Source: an uncultured Azospirillum sp.
GTDB taxonomy: Bacteria > Pseudomonadota > Alphaproteobacteria > RF32 > CAG-239
DNA length: 42,630 nucleotides
Direction: 5' to 3'
Assembly (NCBI GenBank): GCA_946623145.1
Contig: CAMOQT010000003.1
Coordinates: 1 to 42,630 of the forward strand
Part shown: one piece after another, positions 6,013 to 18,453 of the stretch
Layout of the letters: each line of letters begins with the position of its first letter
Numbering within the stretch: position 1 is the first letter of the stretch
Notes under the pieces: model-generated
The model's input: only the letters and a program-made list of their open reading frames with translations
Told to the model about the DNA's origin: nothing
Database searches by the model: none
Position numbers and translations under genes: made by a program

Positions 6013-7725
6013 TCAGAAATGCGGAACTATTTCAATGTAATTTTTCGTCCCTATTTCCTGTTGAATTTTTGCTATATATTGAGAATGTTCACCCCATACT
6101 GTATATTTATCAATAAATGCTTTTGCCTTATTGGGAGATTTTGAAAGTTGCAAAGCTATTGTCTCCTCTAATAAAGCATATGCTGCCTCATGGAATTTAT
6201 CAAAATGGATATGAACTTTATGTTCAGCATCAAAACTAAAAGCACCTCTTGCCAATAAGTAATTAAAATGTATTAATTCTGAAATTCGGTGTGCCTCTAC
6301 AGGTTCTGCTTTCAAAAACAATCTTTTAACGACCCATGTCGTATATATTTTTTTCAATGTTTCTTCTGTAATAACACCTATTTTAGCATATTCAGGCATA
6401 AATGTAATTGAAACCATATCTGCTTTATGTTCTTCAATAATACTCTTATAATTTCCCAAAGCCCGTTGATAATTATTGTCAGGTCCTAATGAATGACCGT
6501 TTTCATGTCCAATGACAAACAGATGATCTGCTTCATCATCATAATATTTATGAAACTCTGAAGCAACCAAACGATCTAATATCTTTTTTTCTCGTTCTTT
6601 ATCTCCTGATTGTCGAACTTGACGATGATAAACATTTCTACGTCCACCACCGGTTTTAATAGCTAATTTATCATTATTAGGTAAATTCTGAGCCAAAGTA
6701 ATCGCTCCTCGACATTGAGCATAATCTCCAGCCAACATGGCAATGTCTGCATCAACCATTGTTTGTTTTAATTCGCCTCCGGAAGTAACATTTTGCTCAT
6801 ACCTGTCACTTAAAGGCATTAATTTTGCCAAATTAGGAATATATTCCTTGAATTGCAAAATTAAATTCGTTCCCTCTTTATTGACAATTCCCGCTCTGGC
6901 ACCAAGCATATCTTTTGCATTGATTTCAATTCCATGACTTTCTAATTCTGATAAAAGGTCCGGATTATCATAAATACTCGGCGTCATTTTATCATCATAA
7001 CTTTCTCGACCAATCGTAAACTCAAGCTGATTATTATTTTGCAAAACAGCCCAATGCTTATCCGCAAGCATATCCATATCTTCGTTGTTTTGTATCAGTG
7101 CTTGAGCTTGCCAACCTAAAAAATCCTTAAAATCTTCATCCGTCGTATAATGTGCAGCTACTTCTAGTTCATTAGCGACTTTAGAAAAAATCTCAGAAAA
7201 ATATTCGGTATAATCTATCGCTTTAAGATTTTCGCCCTCACGACGCACCATCGTACGAACACTTAAAATCTTTTTAATTTCTTCTATTTTACCTTGGGTC
7301 AACATTCTTTTTATAATATGGTGAAATTCTTCTGTTGTTAAATCAGAAGGATAAAAATTACGACCTATGGCACCTTTGACGCCTTTAAATATTTCAATAG
7401 GCTCAACATCTATTCCGTTATGACCTTCTACACCTCTAAACATTTCAAAAAGTTTTAATGTTTTTTCTGCATAGCTACTTGTACGTGCCGCCTCTTTCAG
7501 GGCTTTATGCATACTTAAATTTAAAGCATGATCTTGTTCTTCCGCCACTTCATTAAAATATTCAGCTGCCTTTACCAAATGCTCCAGAGCTTTTTTATTT
7601 CCTTCTGTTAAGTTTTGATATCCCGAAAAATCTCTATCAATAAGCTCTATCTTTCTGGTTTTATGGCTTAAAATATCATCTAACTCTTCTTCTTTCAGAG
7701 AAATTTCATATTCATTAATCTTCAT
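6013..7725 (-). CDS. M49-like (dipeptidyl peptidase III-like) zinc metallopeptidase, divergent
   Basis: VIGHENGHSLGPDNNY followed by SIIEEHKADMVS: H-E-x-x-H and E-E-x-x-A-D motifs in the spacing expected for M49-like families. Confidence 0.65.
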   Translation of the reverse strand: MKINEYEISLKEEELDDILSHKTRKIELIDRDFSGYQNLTEGNKKALEHLVKAAEYFNEVAEEQDHALNLSMHKALKEAARTSSYAEKTLKLFEMFRGVEGHNGIDVEPIEIFKGVKGAIGRNFYPSDLTTEEFHHIIKRMLTQGKIEEIKKILSVRTMVRREGENLKAIDYTEYFSEIFSKVANELEVAAHYTTDEDFKDFLGWQAQALIQNNEDMDMLADKHWAVLQNNNQLEFTIGRESYDDKMTPSIYDNPDLLSELESHGIEINAKDMLGARAGIVNKEGTNLILQFKEYIPNLAKLMPLSDRYEQNVTSGGELKQTMVDADIAMLAGDYAQCRGAITLAQNLPNNDKLAIKTGGGRRNVYHRQVRQSGDKEREKKILDRLVASEFHKYYDDEADHLFVIGHENGHSLGPDNNYQRALGNYKSIIEEHKADMVSITFMPEYAKIGVITEETLKKIYTTWVVKRLFLKAEPVEAHRISELIHFNYLLARGAFSFDAEHKVHIHFDKFHEAAYALLEETIALQLSKSPNKAKAFIDKYTVWGEHSQYIAKIQQEIGTKNYIEIVPHF

Positions 7726-9292
7726 TTTTTATCTCCACTGCTCTAAAGCGATAAACGTTAATTCCGTTATTCCAATAATTAGGATTCATTCCTGCTTTTA
7801 TTTTAAGTTGTTTAAAAAATTCAGTTTTATCTCTCAACTGTGTCCAAACAACCGGCAGAAAAACACCTTGACGGTTTCCATCTCTGATAACTATTCCGTC
7901 TTTTCCTGCTTTTATTTGTTTTAAGACATCTTGTTCGTTGGTATAATTAATCTTTTCAAAATTCGTTAACAGAGAAATACTATATGTTATTTCCGGTAAT
8001 TCATCTTCTGTTACCGGAGAAAAACGATTATCTTCTAACGCTGCGGCATAAGCATTATTTGCAATTCCCTGTGCAACCGAAAGAGTTGGCAGAATATTTC
8101 CTATACATCCTCTGAGTTCTCCATTCTTATATAAAGTTACAAAAACCGCCCCTTTATCAAATAAATCTTCAGGAAAACTGCTACGAGAAGGAGAATAATG
8201 TTTATGATGCTTAACAGCTTTTACTAAACCTTCTTGAGCTATTTGCATTAATATATCTTTATAAAGATTACTGAAATTTTGCAAATTATCTGTTTCTTTT
8301 TCGAGTTTACTTTGTTTTTCTATAACTTCATCAGGATAAAAACTCCAGGCTCCATAGCCGACAACTTTTGACTTATCACCTTGACTATCTCCGGAATTAA
8401 TCAATTCTAACATTTGTGGACGATAATTACTGTTTTCTGCCAAAATCAATGCTGCATTTATTCCGGTAGCTCCGCAAGATTCATGATCATCCAAAAACTT
8501 ACCCTTGCTTATTTTTTTAGCTGTTTTGGCATCAATTTTAACCGCTTCGTTATATTGATAATAATGAGATAAATCTGCCGAAACGATCATAATTGTGTCC
8601 TCATTCATCAGATATTTTTGCAGTCCTTTAGATAAATCTTCTGGAGAAATATTTCCGTATATGATAGGGATAATTTCGGCCTGTGGTAAAACTTTTTGAA
8701 TAAAAGGAAGCTGAACTTCTATGCTATGCTCTTTTATATGTGCCCGATTATTAATATTGAATTGCTTGTTTTCTGCCGCTAATTGCTTAACAATCTGCTT
8801 ATTAACTTTAACATCTCCCAATGGGGTAGAAAAATAATCTATATCTGATAAAAAAGCACCTTGGCCACCATAAAAATGAGAAGGACCAACCAATATAATC
8901 TTCTTTATTTTTGCCGCTGCTCCCAGTAGTGTTGCATAAGCTTTTCCTGCTGCTCCGGCAGAATATTCATATCCGGCATGAGGGACAATTAACATTTTGG
9001 GATAATGACTATATGTAAATTTAAATTCCCCTGATTGTTGAATATATTTTTCAACATTTTTAGATAATTTCTCTGGTTGCGCCATATAAAACAATCCTGC
9101 TACGGCCGGATTTCTGTACTGAGCCAACACATCCTCCTTAGCTTGATAATTAGTTACATATTTGGAATTTGCAGATAAATATTTATCCCAATACCAATAA
9201 TTCAGAATTATTATTGCGACGACAATACACCCTCTTATGATGTACTTGGTTATTTTTGACGATTCAACCTCTTTCTTTTTTTTGCGTCCCAT
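7715..9292 (-). CDS. Membrane-anchored Memo-AMMECR1 fusion (AmmeMemoRadiSam system proteins B and A in one chain)
   Basis: N-terminal TM; Memo motifs RNPAVAGLFY, VPHAGYEYSAGAAGKAYATL, VGPSHFYGG, EHSIEVQLPFIQ, SADLSHYY; AMMECR1 motifs GAVFVTLYKNGELRGCIG, AALEDNRFSPVTEDELPEITYSISLL, GVFLPVVW. Confidence 0.9.
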   Translation of the reverse strand: MGRKKKKEVESSKITKYIIRGCIVVAIIILNYWYWDKYLSANSKYVTNYQAKEDVLAQYRNPAVAGLFYMAQPEKLSKNVEKYIQQSGEFKFTYSHYPKMLIVPHAGYEYSAGAAGKAYATLLGAAAKIKKIILVGPSHFYGGQGAFLSDIDYFSTPLGDVKVNKQIVKQLAAENKQFNINNRAHIKEHSIEVQLPFIQKVLPQAEIIPIIYGNISPEDLSKGLQKYLMNEDTIMIVSADLSHYYQYNEAVKIDAKTAKKISKGKFLDDHESCGATGINAALILAENSNYRPQMLELINSGDSQGDKSKVVGYGAWSFYPDEVIEKQSKLEKETDNLQNFSNLYKDILMQIAQEGLVKAVKHHKHYSPSRSSFPEDLFDKGAVFVTLYKNGELRGCIGNILPTLSVAQGIANNAYAAALEDNRFSPVTEDELPEITYSISLLTNFEKINYTNEQDVLKQIKAGKDGIVIRDGNRQGVFLPVVWTQLRDKTEFFKQLKIKAGMNPNYWNNGINVYRFRAVEIKNED

Positions 9293-12203: not shown

Positions 12204-12923
12204 CTATTCCTTCAAAACACGAGCCACAGTTAAAGCATCTACGCTCTTTGCTCCCGCTGTTTTTAGAACTAAACCACACTCTTTTAATGTTGCTCCTGTG
12301 GTATAAATATCGTCGATTATCACAACTCTTTTGTCTTTAATTTTATCCGCTGAAACGACCGTAAAAGCGTTTTTAACATTATTTCTTCGCCGACTTCCGC
12401 TGCATTCAACTTGAGGTTTTGTATTTTTATGACGTTTAAGCGATGTATAATCAACCGGCACCCCTGTTAATTTACTCAGTTCTTTACACAATAATGCCGC
12501 TTGATTGTATTTTCTATGTCTCAATCTTGTTTTATGAAGAGGAACAGGGATCAAAATATCTACACCTTGTTCCCAAATATCATGTCCTGCAGCTAAAAGC
12601 CATCGTGCTAAAAAGGGGGCATTTTCTGTTCTATCAAGAAATTTAAAGTTTATCAGAAGTGGTTTGCTATTTTCATCATAATATACTTTGGCCCGTTGCA
12701 TTCTAAACGGATTTTTATTATCACTCACGCAGGTTGCACAAGTTTTAGCTTTTGTTCCGCAAGAAAGAGGACATCCGCAACTTTGGCAATAAGGCTTGCT
12801 TATAAATTTTATTTTAGAAAAACAATCTTCACAAAGACCATTTTCTCCGCTCAAAATTTTTCCACATAACAAACAACGTGGCGGTAAAATGATGTTTAAT
12901 ATATTTTTCAAAAAAGCTAACAT
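12204..12923 (-). CDS. comF: ComF family protein
   Basis: N-terminal zinc-finger cysteines (PPRCLLCGKILSGENGLCEDC, CQSCGCPL), PRTase motif VVIIDDIYTTGATLKECGLVLKTAGAKSV. Confidence 0.93.
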   Translation of the reverse strand: MLAFLKNILNIILPPRCLLCGKILSGENGLCEDCFSKIKFISKPYCQSCGCPLSCGTKAKTCATCVSDNKNPFRMQRAKVYYDENSKPLLINFKFLDRTENAPFLARWLLAAGHDIWEQGVDILIPVPLHKTRLRHRKYNQAALLCKELSKLTGVPVDYTSLKRHKNTKPQVECSGSRRRNNVKNAFTVVSADKIKDKRVVIIDDIYTTGATLKECGLVLKTAGAKSVDALTVARVLKE

Positions 12924-13795
12924 CAGGCGGTGATTTTCAATAATTCCTTATGAATATCATTAATATTATTGACGACGATGATTCCCGCATCTTTCATTGT
13001 GTTAACTTTGTCCTGAACAGTGATATCTCCGTAAGTCATCAAATCTCCGACATATCCCATTTTATGATCATCAAGCATTGTATTACCGGCCACAATGCCT
13101 ATTATTGGCTTTTTATGCTTTAAATGACGGTAATAAGCAGCTCCTTCTTCCTCAAACAGTCCGCCCATTTGACCGACCATAACAATTGCATCGGTTTGAT
13201 CATCTTCATGAAAAGCTGCAATAGCATCAACAAAATCCATACCGATAATCATATCATCTCCTAAACCGATAACCGTTGACTGACCGGCATTGGCTCTTTT
13301 TGTTTCCAACACAGCCTCATATGTTAAGGTTGATGAACGGGAAACTATTCCTATACGTCCTACAGTATGAATGTTTTCAGGGAAAATACCTAATCTTGCT
13401 TCTCCAGGAGTAATAATTCCCGGTGTATTTGGGCCGATCAGACGGGTTTTAGATTGCTTCAATATGGCTTTAACTTCCAACATATCTTTAACAGGAACAT
13501 TATCAGCAATACAGACCATCAGGTCTAATCCGGCTTCTACACCTTCTTTAACGGCAGCAACAACCTGTTTTGCCGGAACAAACATAACGGAAGCATTTGC
13601 TCCTGTCCCTTTTATGGCTTCTTTTACCGTATTAAAAACAGGAATACCTAAATGTTCTGTTCCTCCTTTTCCCGGTGTAACACCTGCAACTACATTTGTT
13701 CCGTAGTCCAAAGATCTTTTAACATGGAAAGAAGCTTGTGTACCGGTGATACCTTGTACCAATACTTTTGTCTCTTTATTTACAAAAACAGACAT
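12923..13795 (-). CDS. Succinyl-CoA synthetase alpha-subunit-like protein, catalytic His replaced by Tyr
   Basis: CoA-binding/ligase fold motifs KVLVQGITGTQASFHVKRSLDYGTNVVAGVTPGKGG, GPNTPGIITPGEARLGI, SRSSTLTYEAV; KMGYVGDL stands where SucD has RMGHAGAI. Confidence 0.85.
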   Translation of the reverse strand: MSVFVNKETKVLVQGITGTQASFHVKRSLDYGTNVVAGVTPGKGGTEHLGIPVFNTVKEAIKGTGANASVMFVPAKQVVAAVKEGVEAGLDLMVCIADNVPVKDMLEVKAILKQSKTRLIGPNTPGIITPGEARLGIFPENIHTVGRIGIVSRSSTLTYEAVLETKRANAGQSTVIGLGDDMIIGMDFVDAIAAFHEDDQTDAIVMVGQMGGLFEEEGAAYYRHLKHKKPIIGIVAGNTMLDDHKMGYVGDLMTYGDITVQDKVNTMKDAGIIVVNNINDIHKELLKITA

Positions 13796-14997
13796 TAGTC
13801 ACTTTCCTCCATAGCTTGAAGCAATTTATCAACCGAATCCTGCATATCCTCAGCAATGATAACCGGCAAATGAGAATTTTGCAAAATTCGTTTTGCTTCA
13901 TCTTTATTTGTTCCTTCAAAACGAACAACAAGAGGGACATTTAATCCAACTTCTGAGGCAGCCGCAACAATTCCGTCTGCCACCAGATTACATCTTAAAA
14001 ATCCACCCAGTACATTGATTAATATACCTTCCACGCGGGGATTAGTCATAATTAATTTAATACCAGCGGCTATTTTATCTCTATCAACACCACCTTTAAC
14101 GTTCAGGAAACATGCTGTATCTTCTCCCCGAGCTCGGATTAAATCCATCGCGGCCAAAGCAATTCCATCACCATTTACAATACAACCGATACTTCCATCA
14201 AACGAGCAATATTGGAAGCCATTTTTTGAAGCACGCAATTCTCGCTCTTCAATTTCATAAGCATCGAACAGTGGTTTCATTTGCGGCTGACGAAATAATG
14301 CCTTATCGTCAATTGTTAATTTTGCGTCCAGAGCAACAATTTCACCGTAACGATCAATTCCTGCCGGGTTAACTTCCAGCATTAAAGCATCTGTATCTTT
14401 AAATGCTTGAAACAAGCCTTGGACATATTTTTTTAAACGCGAACGGTATCTGTCTTTTAATTCCAAAAAAGCGGCCGCTTCTTTAACCTGCTTCGAAGAT
14501 ATTCCTTTATGCAAATCTAATTTAAGGCGCAGAATTTTTTCAGGCTCCTCAGCTGCGATTTGAGTAATATTTTTATCGCCCAAATAGGCTAACAACAAAG
14601 TTATTTCTGCTTCTAATCGATCAATAGCCAGACCAGTATAAAATATCTTTTTAATTTTATGAAAAGCTTCCACATAAACACGTGTAACAACTCTTCCTTT
14701 TGAACTCGTTTGCGGCGTTACCAAAGTAGCACCCAACATCTCTTCAGCCCCCTTCATAATAGCGCGACGAGATGTCATATATCTGATACCGGAACCTTTT
14801 CCCGCATTTTTTTCCAAAAAATATCCTTTAGGACGTGCTCCTGACTGAATTTGTGCTTTCAAAACCCAAGGTCCACGTGAAGATACTTCCGAAGCAGCTC
14901 TTTTGGCTTCTAACGGCGTATAGGCAATTTTTCCTTTAGGAATCTTAATTCCGTACTGACTAATAATTGCTTTTGCCTGATATTCATGTATATTCAT
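13795..14997 (-). CDS. Succinyl-CoA synthetase beta-subunit-like protein, divergent
   Basis: MNIHEYQAKAIISQYGIKIPKG start, LEVNPAGI, DAKLTIDDKALFRQP, SFDGSIGCIVNGDGIALAAMDLI, GLNVPLVVRFEGTN; overlaps the SucD-like start. Confidence 0.85.
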   Translation of the reverse strand: MNIHEYQAKAIISQYGIKIPKGKIAYTPLEAKRAASEVSSRGPWVLKAQIQSGARPKGYFLEKNAGKGSGIRYMTSRRAIMKGAEEMLGATLVTPQTSSKGRVVTRVYVEAFHKIKKIFYTGLAIDRLEAEITLLLAYLGDKNITQIAAEEPEKILRLKLDLHKGISSKQVKEAAAFLELKDRYRSRLKKYVQGLFQAFKDTDALMLEVNPAGIDRYGEIVALDAKLTIDDKALFRQPQMKPLFDAYEIEERELRASKNGFQYCSFDGSIGCIVNGDGIALAAMDLIRARGEDTACFLNVKGGVDRDKIAAGIKLIMTNPRVEGILINVLGGFLRCNLVADGIVAAASEVGLNVPLVVRFEGTNKDEAKRILQNSHLPVIIAEDMQDSVDKLLQAMEESD

Positions 14998-15009: not shown

Positions 15010-15408
15010 CTATTGTGCGCCGGCGTATTCCTTTATTTTCTCAACCATTGAGAACAGACCGTTACGGCGACTTGGGCTTAAATGTTCTTGCAGTTTTAGT
15101 TTAGCAAAAATTTCTTCAACTTCAATCTCTTTAATCTCTTGTGCAGATTTATTTGAATAAATCATTAAAACAATAGCAATTAAGCCTTTTACAATAAAGG
15201 CATCGCTATCTCCTTTAAAATAAAATTTTCCGTTTTCCTTTTTGGGTTCAAGCCACACTTGAGATTGACATCCTCTGACTTTCCAGTCTTCCGTTCTGTA
15301 TTCTTCATCCAGAGGCTCTAAATGACTGCCAAGTTCTATAATGTAACTGTATTTTTCCTCCCAACCATCCAGAAGTTCGAAATTATCTATCAGTTCATTA
15401 ATATCCAT
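15010..15408 (-). CDS. sufE: SufE family Fe-S assembly protein
   Basis: WEEKYSYIIELGSHLEPL, DWKVRGCQSQVWL (conserved Cys), LSPSRRNGLFSMVEKIKEYA. Confidence 0.93.
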   Translation of the reverse strand: MDINELIDNFELLDGWEEKYSYIIELGSHLEPLDEEYRTEDWKVRGCQSQVWLEPKKENGKFYFKGDSDAFIVKGLIAIVLMIYSNKSAQEIKEIEVEEIFAKLKLQEHLSPSRRNGLFSMVEKIKEYAGAQ

Positions 15409-15869
15409 TATATCATCTCCATCATAGCTCGAGCTTCTTCTGTCATACGGTCAAAGCTCCATGCCGGCTCCCAAACGATTTTAACTGTCACTTTTCCAAC
15501 CCCTTCAACCAGAGCCACAACATCTGCGGCTTGTTGAGGTAAGACACCGGCAACAGGACATCCCGGAGCCGTTAATGTCATATCAATCTCAACATCTCCG
15601 TTATCACTTTGACGGACATCATAAACCAATCCTAAATCATAAATATTTATTGGAATTTCCGGATCAAAAACTGTTTTAAGCGCTTCAACAATATCTCCCT
15701 GAGATGCTTTTTTCTCTCCTTCAGGTAAAGCTTGCCCAGCGTGAGCCTCGTAATCTTGAGGAACAACAGATCCTTCAGAAGCAGTATCCTGCCCCTGAGT
15801 CATAGCACTTAGAAGTCTTAATTCATTTTCATCTATTTCTTTTTCTTCACTCACTATTTTATTCCTCAA
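15408..15869 (-). CDS. sufT: MIP18/DUF59-family SUF assembly protein
   Basis: ALKTVFDPEIPINIYDLGLVYDV, MTLTAPGCPVAGVLP, VKIVWEPAWSFDRMTEEAR. Confidence 0.9.
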   Translation of the reverse strand: MRNKIVSEEKEIDENELRLLSAMTQGQDTASEGSVVPQDYEAHAGQALPEGEKKASQGDIVEALKTVFDPEIPINIYDLGLVYDVRQSDNGDVEIDMTLTAPGCPVAGVLPQQAADVVALVEGVGKVTVKIVWEPAWSFDRMTEEARAMMEMI

Positions 15870-16779
15870 CCATCAAAATCAGACAAACAATCGACACTAA
15901 AAGTAATATCAAATACTGTGGTTTGATTTTTATATAATGTCCTTTTTTAGCAAAAGTAAACAGATAGTTATTTCCTAACATAATCCATACCGGATATGCG
16001 TGGACAATTGCTGCTACATAAGCCGGGTTTGGACTTAAATACATTGTATAAGTTTTCAAAACACTGTGTAGAATCGCAAAGCACATAAAAAACCATGCAA
16101 ATTTTAGGTTTTTACGTTCAAAAATCTCTTTAAAATGCCGTTTTTCTTGGAATAATATATTGCACACCCCTGCGACAAAAGAAGTTATCAAGGTATAATA
16201 AAATATTGCCGAAATTACATTTTCTGCACCTAAATGTGTCGTTTCTTTACTGGTCACATCAATAAACGTTTCACAACTCATTGCAGCCAATAAAAACCAT
16301 AAAGCTTTACGATTAGCTTTAGCCTGACTGATAAGAATTAAGGCTGTTGCGACACCTAACAAACATATGACAATTAAGGAAAATTTATCAGGTTCTGCAA
16401 TTAATTCCTGTAACTCATGGGGATGAATAAGCACCCAGACGATAAAGATAATGGCAATACTGACAGGATGAATAAGACTGGTAACTTCCGCTCCAAAGGC
16501 TTTCGCTGAATTAAGAATCCGATTTTCTCCAATTGATAAAACTAAGCCTTGTACCACGCATAAAACATAAAACCAGATATTGTGAATTGGCACAAAATAA
16601 AAACAAAACGGCAACAGAATAACTGCCGTTCCTAAACCGCGATAAGCCATTAAAACAGAGCCTTTGACTTTTAAAAACTGATTAGCCCATACATAACTTG
16701 CGGTTAATAAGCTTAAACAAAGAGCCAATATCCACCAATAGTTTTGCATTAAATCCTCTGCTTCTTGTTTTTTGCACAA
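15859..16779 (-). CDS. DMT-superfamily (EamA-like) transporter, about 10 TM (paralog 1)
   Basis: Two-repeat hydrophobic architecture; clear similarity to the product of 17563..18453. Confidence 0.75.
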   Translation of the reverse strand: MCKKQEAEDLMQNYWWILALCLSLLTASYVWANQFLKVKGSVLMAYRGLGTAVILLPFCFYFVPIHNIWFYVLCVVQGLVLSIGENRILNSAKAFGAEVTSLIHPVSIAIIFIVWVLIHPHELQELIAEPDKFSLIVICLLGVATALILISQAKANRKALWFLLAAMSCETFIDVTSKETTHLGAENVISAIFYYTLITSFVAGVCNILFQEKRHFKEIFERKNLKFAWFFMCFAILHSVLKTYTMYLSPNPAYVAAIVHAYPVWIMLGNNYLFTFAKKGHYIKIKPQYLILLLVSIVCLILMVEE

Positions 16780-17562: not shown

Positions 17563-18453
17563 TTATTTTCCAAGCAAAATTAAACCGATGACAGATGCGA
17601 ATAAAACACCGACAACTTTTAGGCTAATATGCGGACATAGATAATTTTTATAATGACAAACTTGGTAAATATCCCAACCGATAATTAACATAGGATACGT
17701 ATAGATAATTGCTGCAACATATGATGGATTAAATGTTTTAGCCATTGCCACGTTCTTTGAGGCTAAAGACAGAAGTGCCCAAATAACCAATATCACCCCA
17801 TTTTTCAAATTTTGTGGTTTCCACAGCAAGGATGTTTTATAAGTCCTTAAATATGCCCATAAGTTGGCTACACCCATGATAATACTCATAATCAAAATAT
17901 AATAAAAGACAGCCGAAGACAGATTTTCTTTTCCAAAAAACATCGCCTGTTTGTTCAAAATATCCGACCCTGTTGTCATAAACAAGCACGGCAACAAATA
18001 TATAAAGGCACGGAAACCTATCTTACTTTTACGCAATTGCAAAATTGTAATCGTAATTCCTACTAAACAGGCAATGATTCCTAGACACCGCCACGGATTA
18101 TGAATTAATAAAATAATCTGGTACGGATATATCATCAACCAAGAAATAAATGTCACACCGATACTCAACGGTTGAATGGCGCTTGTCATTTCTGCTCCGT
18201 ATTTATTGACGGCATGAAAAAAACGATTATCCAAATATGATGCCCATAAGCCTTGCGCAATTACAAACACATAAAAATAGGGATCATATATGAATGGAAA
18301 AAAAGGAATAAACGGCAACATAACAAGTCCGGCACCGAGACCACGATATGTCATGAATAACGAAGCCGGCATTTTGAAAATTTGGCTTGAATAAATATAA
18401 ACAGCCGTAAATAGGCTGGAAATTAAAGCCGCTATCCACCAAACATTTTCCAT
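17563..18453 (-). CDS. DMT-superfamily (EamA-like) transporter (paralog 2)
   Basis: WWIAALISSLFTAVYIYSSQIFK...TYRGLGAGLVMLPF...NRFFHAVNKYGAEMTSAIQPLSI parallels paralog 1 (YRGLGTAVILLPF...NRILNSAKAFGAEVTSLIHPVSI). Confidence 0.75.
   Translation of the reverse strand: MENVWWIAALISSLFTAVYIYSSQIFKMPASLFMTYRGLGAGLVMLPFIPFFPFIYDPYFYVFVIAQGLWASYLDNRFFHAVNKYGAEMTSAIQPLSIGVTFISWLMIYPYQIILLIHNPWRCLGIIACLVGITITILQLRKSKIGFRAFIYLLPCLFMTTGSDILNKQAMFFGKENLSSAVFYYILIMSIIMGVANLWAYLRTYKTSLLWKPQNLKNGVILVIWALLSLASKNVAMAKTFNPSYVAAIIYTYPMLIIGWDIYQVCHYKNYLCPHISLKVVGVLFASVIGLILLGK

Follow-up and report, generated by a model that had tools for sequence, protein, structure and literature searches.

A pair of sucCD-like genes in the window (the whole stretch of 42,630 nucleotides that was analysed) appears from its residues to be a conserved new variant of succinyl-CoA synthetase (SCS) that extends across an entire bacterial order, and its job is probably other than that of a succinate-CoA ligase. 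The most likely explanation is that the two proteins form a pseudoenzyme that binds CoA and nucleotide. The original prediction had offered either a CoA-binding pseudoenzyme or a ligase with altered chemistry. This is supported by the conservation of the pair, the selection acting on it, its new residues, the lack of a second SucCD and the loss of succinyl-CoA genes, and it needs correction in its ATP-grasp component, since that site looks intact. Between a pseudoenzyme and an enzyme with new chemistry, sequence alone cannot choose.

The gene pair retains the architecture and fold of succinyl-CoA synthetase

Both open reading frames are intact and share a single base in the overlap typical of SucCD, as had been predicted:

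12923..13795, minus strand: SucD-like alpha subunit without the phosphohistidine, 290 aa (PF02629, 5.7e-27; PF00549, 9.5e-13)
13795..14997, minus strand: SucC-like beta subunit with ATP-grasp and CoA-ligase domains, 400 aa (PF08442, 3.7e-49; PF00549, 6.1e-19)

In an NCBIfam search, the alpha chain matched NF004230 at 347.2 bits (cut-off 336) and the beta chain matched NF001913 at 393.4 bits (cut-off 370), while the chains fell short of the models TIGR01019 and TIGR01016. The best PDB matches of the alpha AlphaFold model (pLDDT 90.6) were SCS alpha chains, with a TM score of 0.93. Those of the beta model (pLDDT 88.6) were SCS beta chains, and its low pTM of 0.63 probably reflects an uncertain placement of the domains. 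By domain architecture and fold, as judged with Pfam, NCBIfam and the AlphaFold models, the pair falls within SCS, and it is a member of the SCS superfamily by descent. A search for the phosphohistidine, Glu208 and the phosphate-site residues found none of them, so the pair does not appear to be an SCS of the working type.

The phosphohistidine is absent throughout the order

The gene is present in 156 of 158 genomes of the window's order, representing 17 genera. With 120 further loci fetched, the alignment of the order comprised 151 alpha chains and 149 beta chains; some of the beta-residue counts rest on 147 or 148 sequences. Alignment with E. coli and other alphaproteobacteria confirmed that the phosphohistidine is replaced by tyrosine in the window, and located both catalytic columns of the alpha subunit (mature E. 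coli numbering):

13052..13054, minus strand: Tyr248 (codon TAT), in the column of E. coli His246
13169..13171, minus strand: Gln209, in the column of E. coli Glu208

No gap beside the Tyr248 column could conceal a histidine. His occupies this column in none of the 151 alpha subunits of the order (Tyr in 136, Leu in 13, Phe in 1 and Ile in 1) and in all 19 comparison sequences from outside it (E. coli and other alphaproteobacteria), an absence that is far beyond chance. In SCS, His246 of the alpha subunit is phosphorylated and is stabilised by Glu208 of the alpha and Glu197 of the beta subunit (PMC10342173). The predicted change of GEIGG to GQMGG, which turns Glu208 into Gln, was found in the window, and across the 151 homologues this column holds Gln in 74, Lys in 31, Gly in 16, Ala in 12, Arg in 10 and Glu in just 2, as would be expected of a position released from constraint and free to vary.

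A conserved His at the phosphorylation site, for example that of DDHKMG, had been named beforehand as the result that would speak against the prediction. The alignment gave it no support: no more than 84 of 151 sequences have His at the DDHKMG position, and we rejected it as a replacement phospho-acceptor. None of the active-site loops in the alignment of the order's homologues contains a newly conserved His. The single newly conserved His, at position 282 of the window's alpha chain, lies in the C-terminal helix.

New residues are fixed around the phosphate site

In the relative Nmar_0206, a sulfate lies between two ‘power helix’ tips, where it touches Gly163, Ala164, Gly310 and Gly311 (PMC11494057). 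The equivalent tips and the loops that face them have changed in the order as follows (window numbering):

13331..13333, minus strand: Ser155, which opens the alpha ‘power helix’ (SCS has Gly), in 150/151
13253..13258, minus strand: Asp180-Asp181 of the GLGDD loop (GIGGD in SCS), Asp180 in 151/151 and Asp181 in 150/151
14167..14169, minus strand: Asp277, which opens the beta ‘power helix’ (SCS has Ala), Asp or Glu in 133/147
14095..14103, minus strand: Asn299-Val-Lys301 of NVKGG (DVGGG in SCS), Asn in 146/147 and Lys or Arg in 147/147

The small residues of SCS are thus missing from both phosphate-binding helix tips, with the beta carboxylate replaced by Ser, Gly, Ala or Asn in 14 of 147 sequences. 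The motif GIGGDP of SCS alpha reads GLGDDM in the window. The alignment also agreed with the motifs read earlier from the window, namely SRSST for SRSGT in the alpha chain, and VNGDG, NVKGG and GGFLRCN for VNGAG, DVGGG and GGIVRCD in the beta chain. In the AlphaFold models the alpha helix spans residues 155-167 and the beta helix residues 277-289. Since these helices begin exactly at Ser155 and Asp277, the changed residues stand at the position expected for the phosphate. On the facing loops, Asp180 of the alpha and Lys301 of the beta subunit may be joined across the interface by a salt bridge. In the alpha model, confidence is lowest at the swinging loop, which is probably mobile. Overall, some of the catalytic positions drift, while neighbouring ones have come under a new constraint. 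A statistical clustering of changed invariant sites was rejected, as 12 of 37 canonically invariant sites had changed in the hand-defined active-site loops versus 39 of 150 elsewhere, which is not significant overall (p = 0.42).

Residues of the nucleotide and CoA sites are retained

The beta subunit keeps the residues of the ATP-grasp site:

14326..14376, minus strand: ATP-grasp Glu208, Asn210 and Asp224 (E. coli beta Glu197, Asn199 and Asp213), in 148/148, 144/148 and 148/148

The Mg-nucleotide residues K46, R54, E99, E197, N199 and D213 (E. coli numbering) are each kept in 97-100% of the family. Beta E107 is lost. In the alpha subunit, the CoA motif G15/T17/G18/Q20 is complete in 151 of 151 sequences, and the swinging-loop Gly is also retained in the alignment. 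The original prediction had taken the ATP-grasp loop to be lost. It is not: the loop carries an insertion of about 10 residues and the Mg-nucleotide residues are kept. We rejected loop loss because His-bearing alphaproteobacterial SucC proteins also have insertions at the same loop, one being in genome G034 and others in G039 and G047, where the aligner places them slightly differently. The ATP-grasp site looks intact.

In one genus (g4; loci L041, L057, L195, L198-L200 and L202-L210), Leu, Phe or Ile replaces the Tyr at the catalytic column. Where it was inspected, the CoA loop TPGKGG is altered in this genus as well, whereas Asp180, Ser155 and the ATP-grasp residues are retained.

The variant forms a group of its own and is under purifying selection

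The original prediction had proposed a phylogeny to see whether the Tyr variant is a clade; in a concatenated tree, the order was separate from all other sequences with a support of 0.996. Of 387 genomes sampled across the class, only members of the window's family matched a DNA pattern for Ser155...Asp180-Asp181. As this pattern recovers 140 of the 151 known members, the absence of the signature outside the family is likely rather than certain.

For the three genome pairs with unsaturated dS, dN/dS was 0.050, 0.048 and 0.040 for sucD, and 0.047, 0.045 and 0.041 for sucC; the neighbouring sufE gave similar values where informative (0.043 and 0.048). The SucC-like and SucD-like proteins are under strong purifying selection. 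These ratios of about 0.04-0.05, together with the kept Mg-ATP residues and CoA-binding Gly motif, are therefore not those of decay. Recent decay or an error in a metagenome-assembled genome (MAG) was rejected on the presence of the gene in nearly all genomes and on the low dN/dS, and the earlier view that this is not simple decay is borne out by the order-wide retention, the purifying selection and the newly fixed residues.

Two observations concern single records. Genome G131 has two differing copies of the alpha gene (L128 and L150) in one bin, which is either a duplication or a mixed bin. Locus L092, recorded as Bacillales bacterium Bu78, encodes a His-bearing SucD that is 49% identical to that of the window, and the taxon name of the MAG behind it may be wrong.

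The pair lies between sufE and comF

The genes around the pair are the following:

15010..15408, minus strand: sufE, conserved upstream neighbour of sucC (PF02657, 1.3e-45), adjacent in 142/144 loci
12204..12923, minus strand: ComF-like protein with a double zinc ribbon and a phosphoribosyltransferase domain, downstream of sucD (PF18912, 3.8e-14; PF00156, 5e-9)
15408..15869, minus strand: SufT-like PF01883 protein, a looser neighbour (PF01883, 3.9e-19)

Adjacency was found for sucC and sucD in 146 of 149 loci and for sucD and comF in 145 of 147, and typical gaps are 3 to 15 bases between sufE and sucC, -1 between sucC and sucD, and -4 between sucD and comF, a spacing that suggests an operon. 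Genes beyond this cluster vary between genera. The pair had been described as next to sufE and sufT; the first part of this holds in nearly all loci, whereas sufT adjoins sufE in the window and in only 72 of 125 loci. SufE is single-copy in these genomes and is the neighbour of sucC, and it is the sole SufE found in the window's genome. The motif GC-x-S-x-V, including the persulfide Cys, is present in 144 of 144 SufE proteins. The only near-complete sampled family member without the pair, G025, lacks SufE too, which indicates a missing stretch of assembly. Around His-bearing SucCD, neither sufE nor comF was found in short control loci with flanks of about 0.5-2 kb.

Elsewhere in the window, a 525-aa protein encoded at 7715-9292 (minus strand) fuses a Memo-like and an AMMECR1 domain (Pfam) and likely carries an N-terminal membrane anchor; the gene next to it (6013-7725, 570 aa) has no Pfam match. 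Two similar-looking membrane proteins (15859-16779 and 17563-18453, minus strand) are encoded between sufS and the sufT-like gene, inside the suf cluster, and seem by eye to be of the drug/metabolite-transporter type.

The tested pathway genes around succinyl-CoA are missing

The search proposed originally for a second canonical sucCD found none in the sampled family genomes (the window's genome is 76% complete and its relatives up to 100%), nor any other Ligase_CoA genes; nearly all of them contain the alpha and beta genes only. In the genomes of the window's family, many of them 99-100% complete, we did not find sucA, citrate synthase, sdhA/frdA (30-residue scraps only), dapD (weak scraps only) or, except for one fragment, methylmalonyl-CoA mutase. 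ALAS had no match above the cut-off in the family, and three genomes had a sub-cut-off relative from the wider group. Among the genes tested for a succinyl-CoA source or user (sucA, dapD, ALAS and methylmalonyl-CoA mutase), none thus supplies such a pathway. The order has lost every Krebs-cycle enzyme tested. The family keeps an enzyme of about 1190 aa with PF01855, mostly as a single chain, whose size points to pyruvate:ferredoxin/flavodoxin oxidoreductase. Close relatives of the window's genome are MAGs from rumen and gut, including roe deer rumen, and the order consists of host-associated alphaproteobacteria that are probably fermentative.

In another family of the class, locus L065 of genome G034 encodes a His-bearing SucD whose SucC partner has Arg for Glu197 and a deletion. 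This genome, 81% complete, has no match to sucA, citrate synthase or sdhA. Its SucCD may be giving up its role separately, at an early stage.

Possible functions of the pair

We lean, with a little better than even confidence, towards a pseudo-SCS that binds CoA and nucleotide without synthesising succinyl-CoA, and that regulates or scaffolds a product of the cluster, most plausibly SufE. The sequences show that the ancestral SucCD lost the phosphohistidine and its Glu partner in the alpha subunit, that side chains appeared at both phosphate-binding helix tips (alpha Ser155, beta Asp/Glu277) and that the facing loops fixed new residues (alpha Asp180, beta Asn299 and Lys301), with the Mg-ATP residues and the CoA-binding Gly motif held by strong purifying selection. 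With the His missing and the tips changed, the phosphate site would therefore be filled, flanked by the retained CoA and Mg-ATP sites. The alpha-beta complex would still form and still bind CoA or acyl-CoA and Mg-nucleotide, but carriage of phosphate between the two sites would be impossible, hence no succinyl-CoA would be made; the new side chains could stand in for phosphate and hold the interface. As a more tentative step, such a CoA- and nucleotide-responsive partner might act on SufE in Fe-S cluster assembly, a link that rests on gene order, and adjacency is no proof. Against this explanation, the full ATP-grasp site is kept, including beta Glu197, a residue known for its part in His phosphorylation, and some phosphoryl chemistry may remain; the lack of a significant concentration of changed invariant sites in the active-site loops also counts against it.

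That same site keeps open the option of an active enzyme with new chemistry, which we regard as possible but less likely: acyl or carbamoyl transfer at a remodelled alpha-beta pocket without phosphohistidine, with or without ATP, for example if the new carboxylates, alpha Asp180 and beta Asp/Glu277, accepted the acyl group as in a CoA-transferase. The new residues are fixed rather than drifting, the CoA motifs are retained along with ATP-grasp, and FdrA/AllF offers a precedent within the SucD/PF00549 family (PMC8550087, PMC11326118); yet not every sequence has the carboxylate at beta 277, and the conserved cluster contains no substrate-pathway gene, its neighbours being sufE and comF. It is very improbable that the pair is a working SCS with another phospho-acceptor, either the Tyr itself or the His of DDHKMG. 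The Gly of the swinging loop and Glu197 of the beta subunit have been kept and the loop is probably mobile, being the least confident in the model, but 15 of 151 sequences have Leu, Phe or Ile in place of Tyr, the nearby His is far from universal, no active-site loop has gained a conserved His, and no known succinyl-CoA source or user occurs among those tested. Nor do we give much credit to a relic, a degenerating SucCD that persists because it sits between sufE and comF and whose complex would be structural at most. In favour of this, these bacteria no longer have the TCA cycle, and one genus has additionally lost the Tyr and altered its CoA loop; this is outweighed by dN/dS values similar to those of sufE, by the columns of new invariant residues and by reading frames that are intact in almost every one of about 150 genomes from 17 genera. 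A more far-reaching and rather speculative idea is that the order turned SucCD, the last TCA-cycle enzyme, into a His-free CoA/ATP-binding complex for SufE Fe-S assembly, working either as a CoA-sensing regulator of sulfur transfer or as an acid-activating enzyme (persulfide/CoA transfer, a new chemistry).

Few enzymes of central metabolism are better known than succinyl-CoA synthetase. The naming of the order's genes as succinate-CoA ligase is to be expected, because both chains pass the NCBIfam equivalog cut-offs though the His is absent, and it is probably wrong; a reaction that is probably absent from these gut and rumen bacteria would then enter their metabolic models. If the pseudoenzyme explanation is true, nature would here provide a clear example of an enzyme of central metabolism becoming a pseudoenzyme across an order. 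Experiments could draw on about 150 sequences, and Fe-S assembly could be tested directly for a link with CoA status.

Comparison with known systems

No published description of such an SCS pseudoenzyme was found in the open-access literature, a scope that leaves out most subscription journals. The window's pair shares with E. coli SucCD (PDB 1JKJ/2SCU) the fold, the two overlapping genes, the CoA-binding Gly motif and the ATP-grasp Mg-nucleotide residues, with 47% identity over the alpha model; it differs in lacking His246 and Glu208, in its helix tips and facing loops, and in being without a surrounding TCA cycle. ADP-forming acyl-CoA synthetases, ATP-citrate lyase and citryl-CoA synthetase, which use a phosphohistidine, have domains and the helix-tip phosphate site in common with the pair, but are far more distant in sequence and fold score.

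FdrA/AllF of E. coli is a SucD-superfamily protein without SCS activity that functions together with AllG and AllH in oxamic transcarbamylase (PMC8550087, PMC11326118). The lack of activity would be shared by the window's pair, whereas the architecture, the partners, the length (555 aa) and a location outside any suf cluster set FdrA/AllF apart, and the curated FdrA model NF004760 gave only a weak match (33.5 bits, 1.7e-8, versus a cut-off of 433). A parallel in ligand binding may be found in Pat acetyltransferases such as E. coli PatZ, which belong to the same superfamily, lack the catalytic His and retain the site for the CoA ligand; in type I/II GNATs, such His-less acyl-CoA-synthetase domains are inactive and bind and sense acetyl-CoA (PMC8556138). 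The pair had a weak profile match to the ‘protein acetyltransferase’ PDB chains 9isq and 9it0. Pat is a single chain with the ACD-type domain order fused to a GNAT, while the window encodes a free SCS-type two-chain protein beside sufE, with no GNAT domain found by Pfam in its 290 and 400 aa chains. By analogy, the pair might respond to its CoA ligand much as the His-less domain of Pat senses acetyl-CoA.
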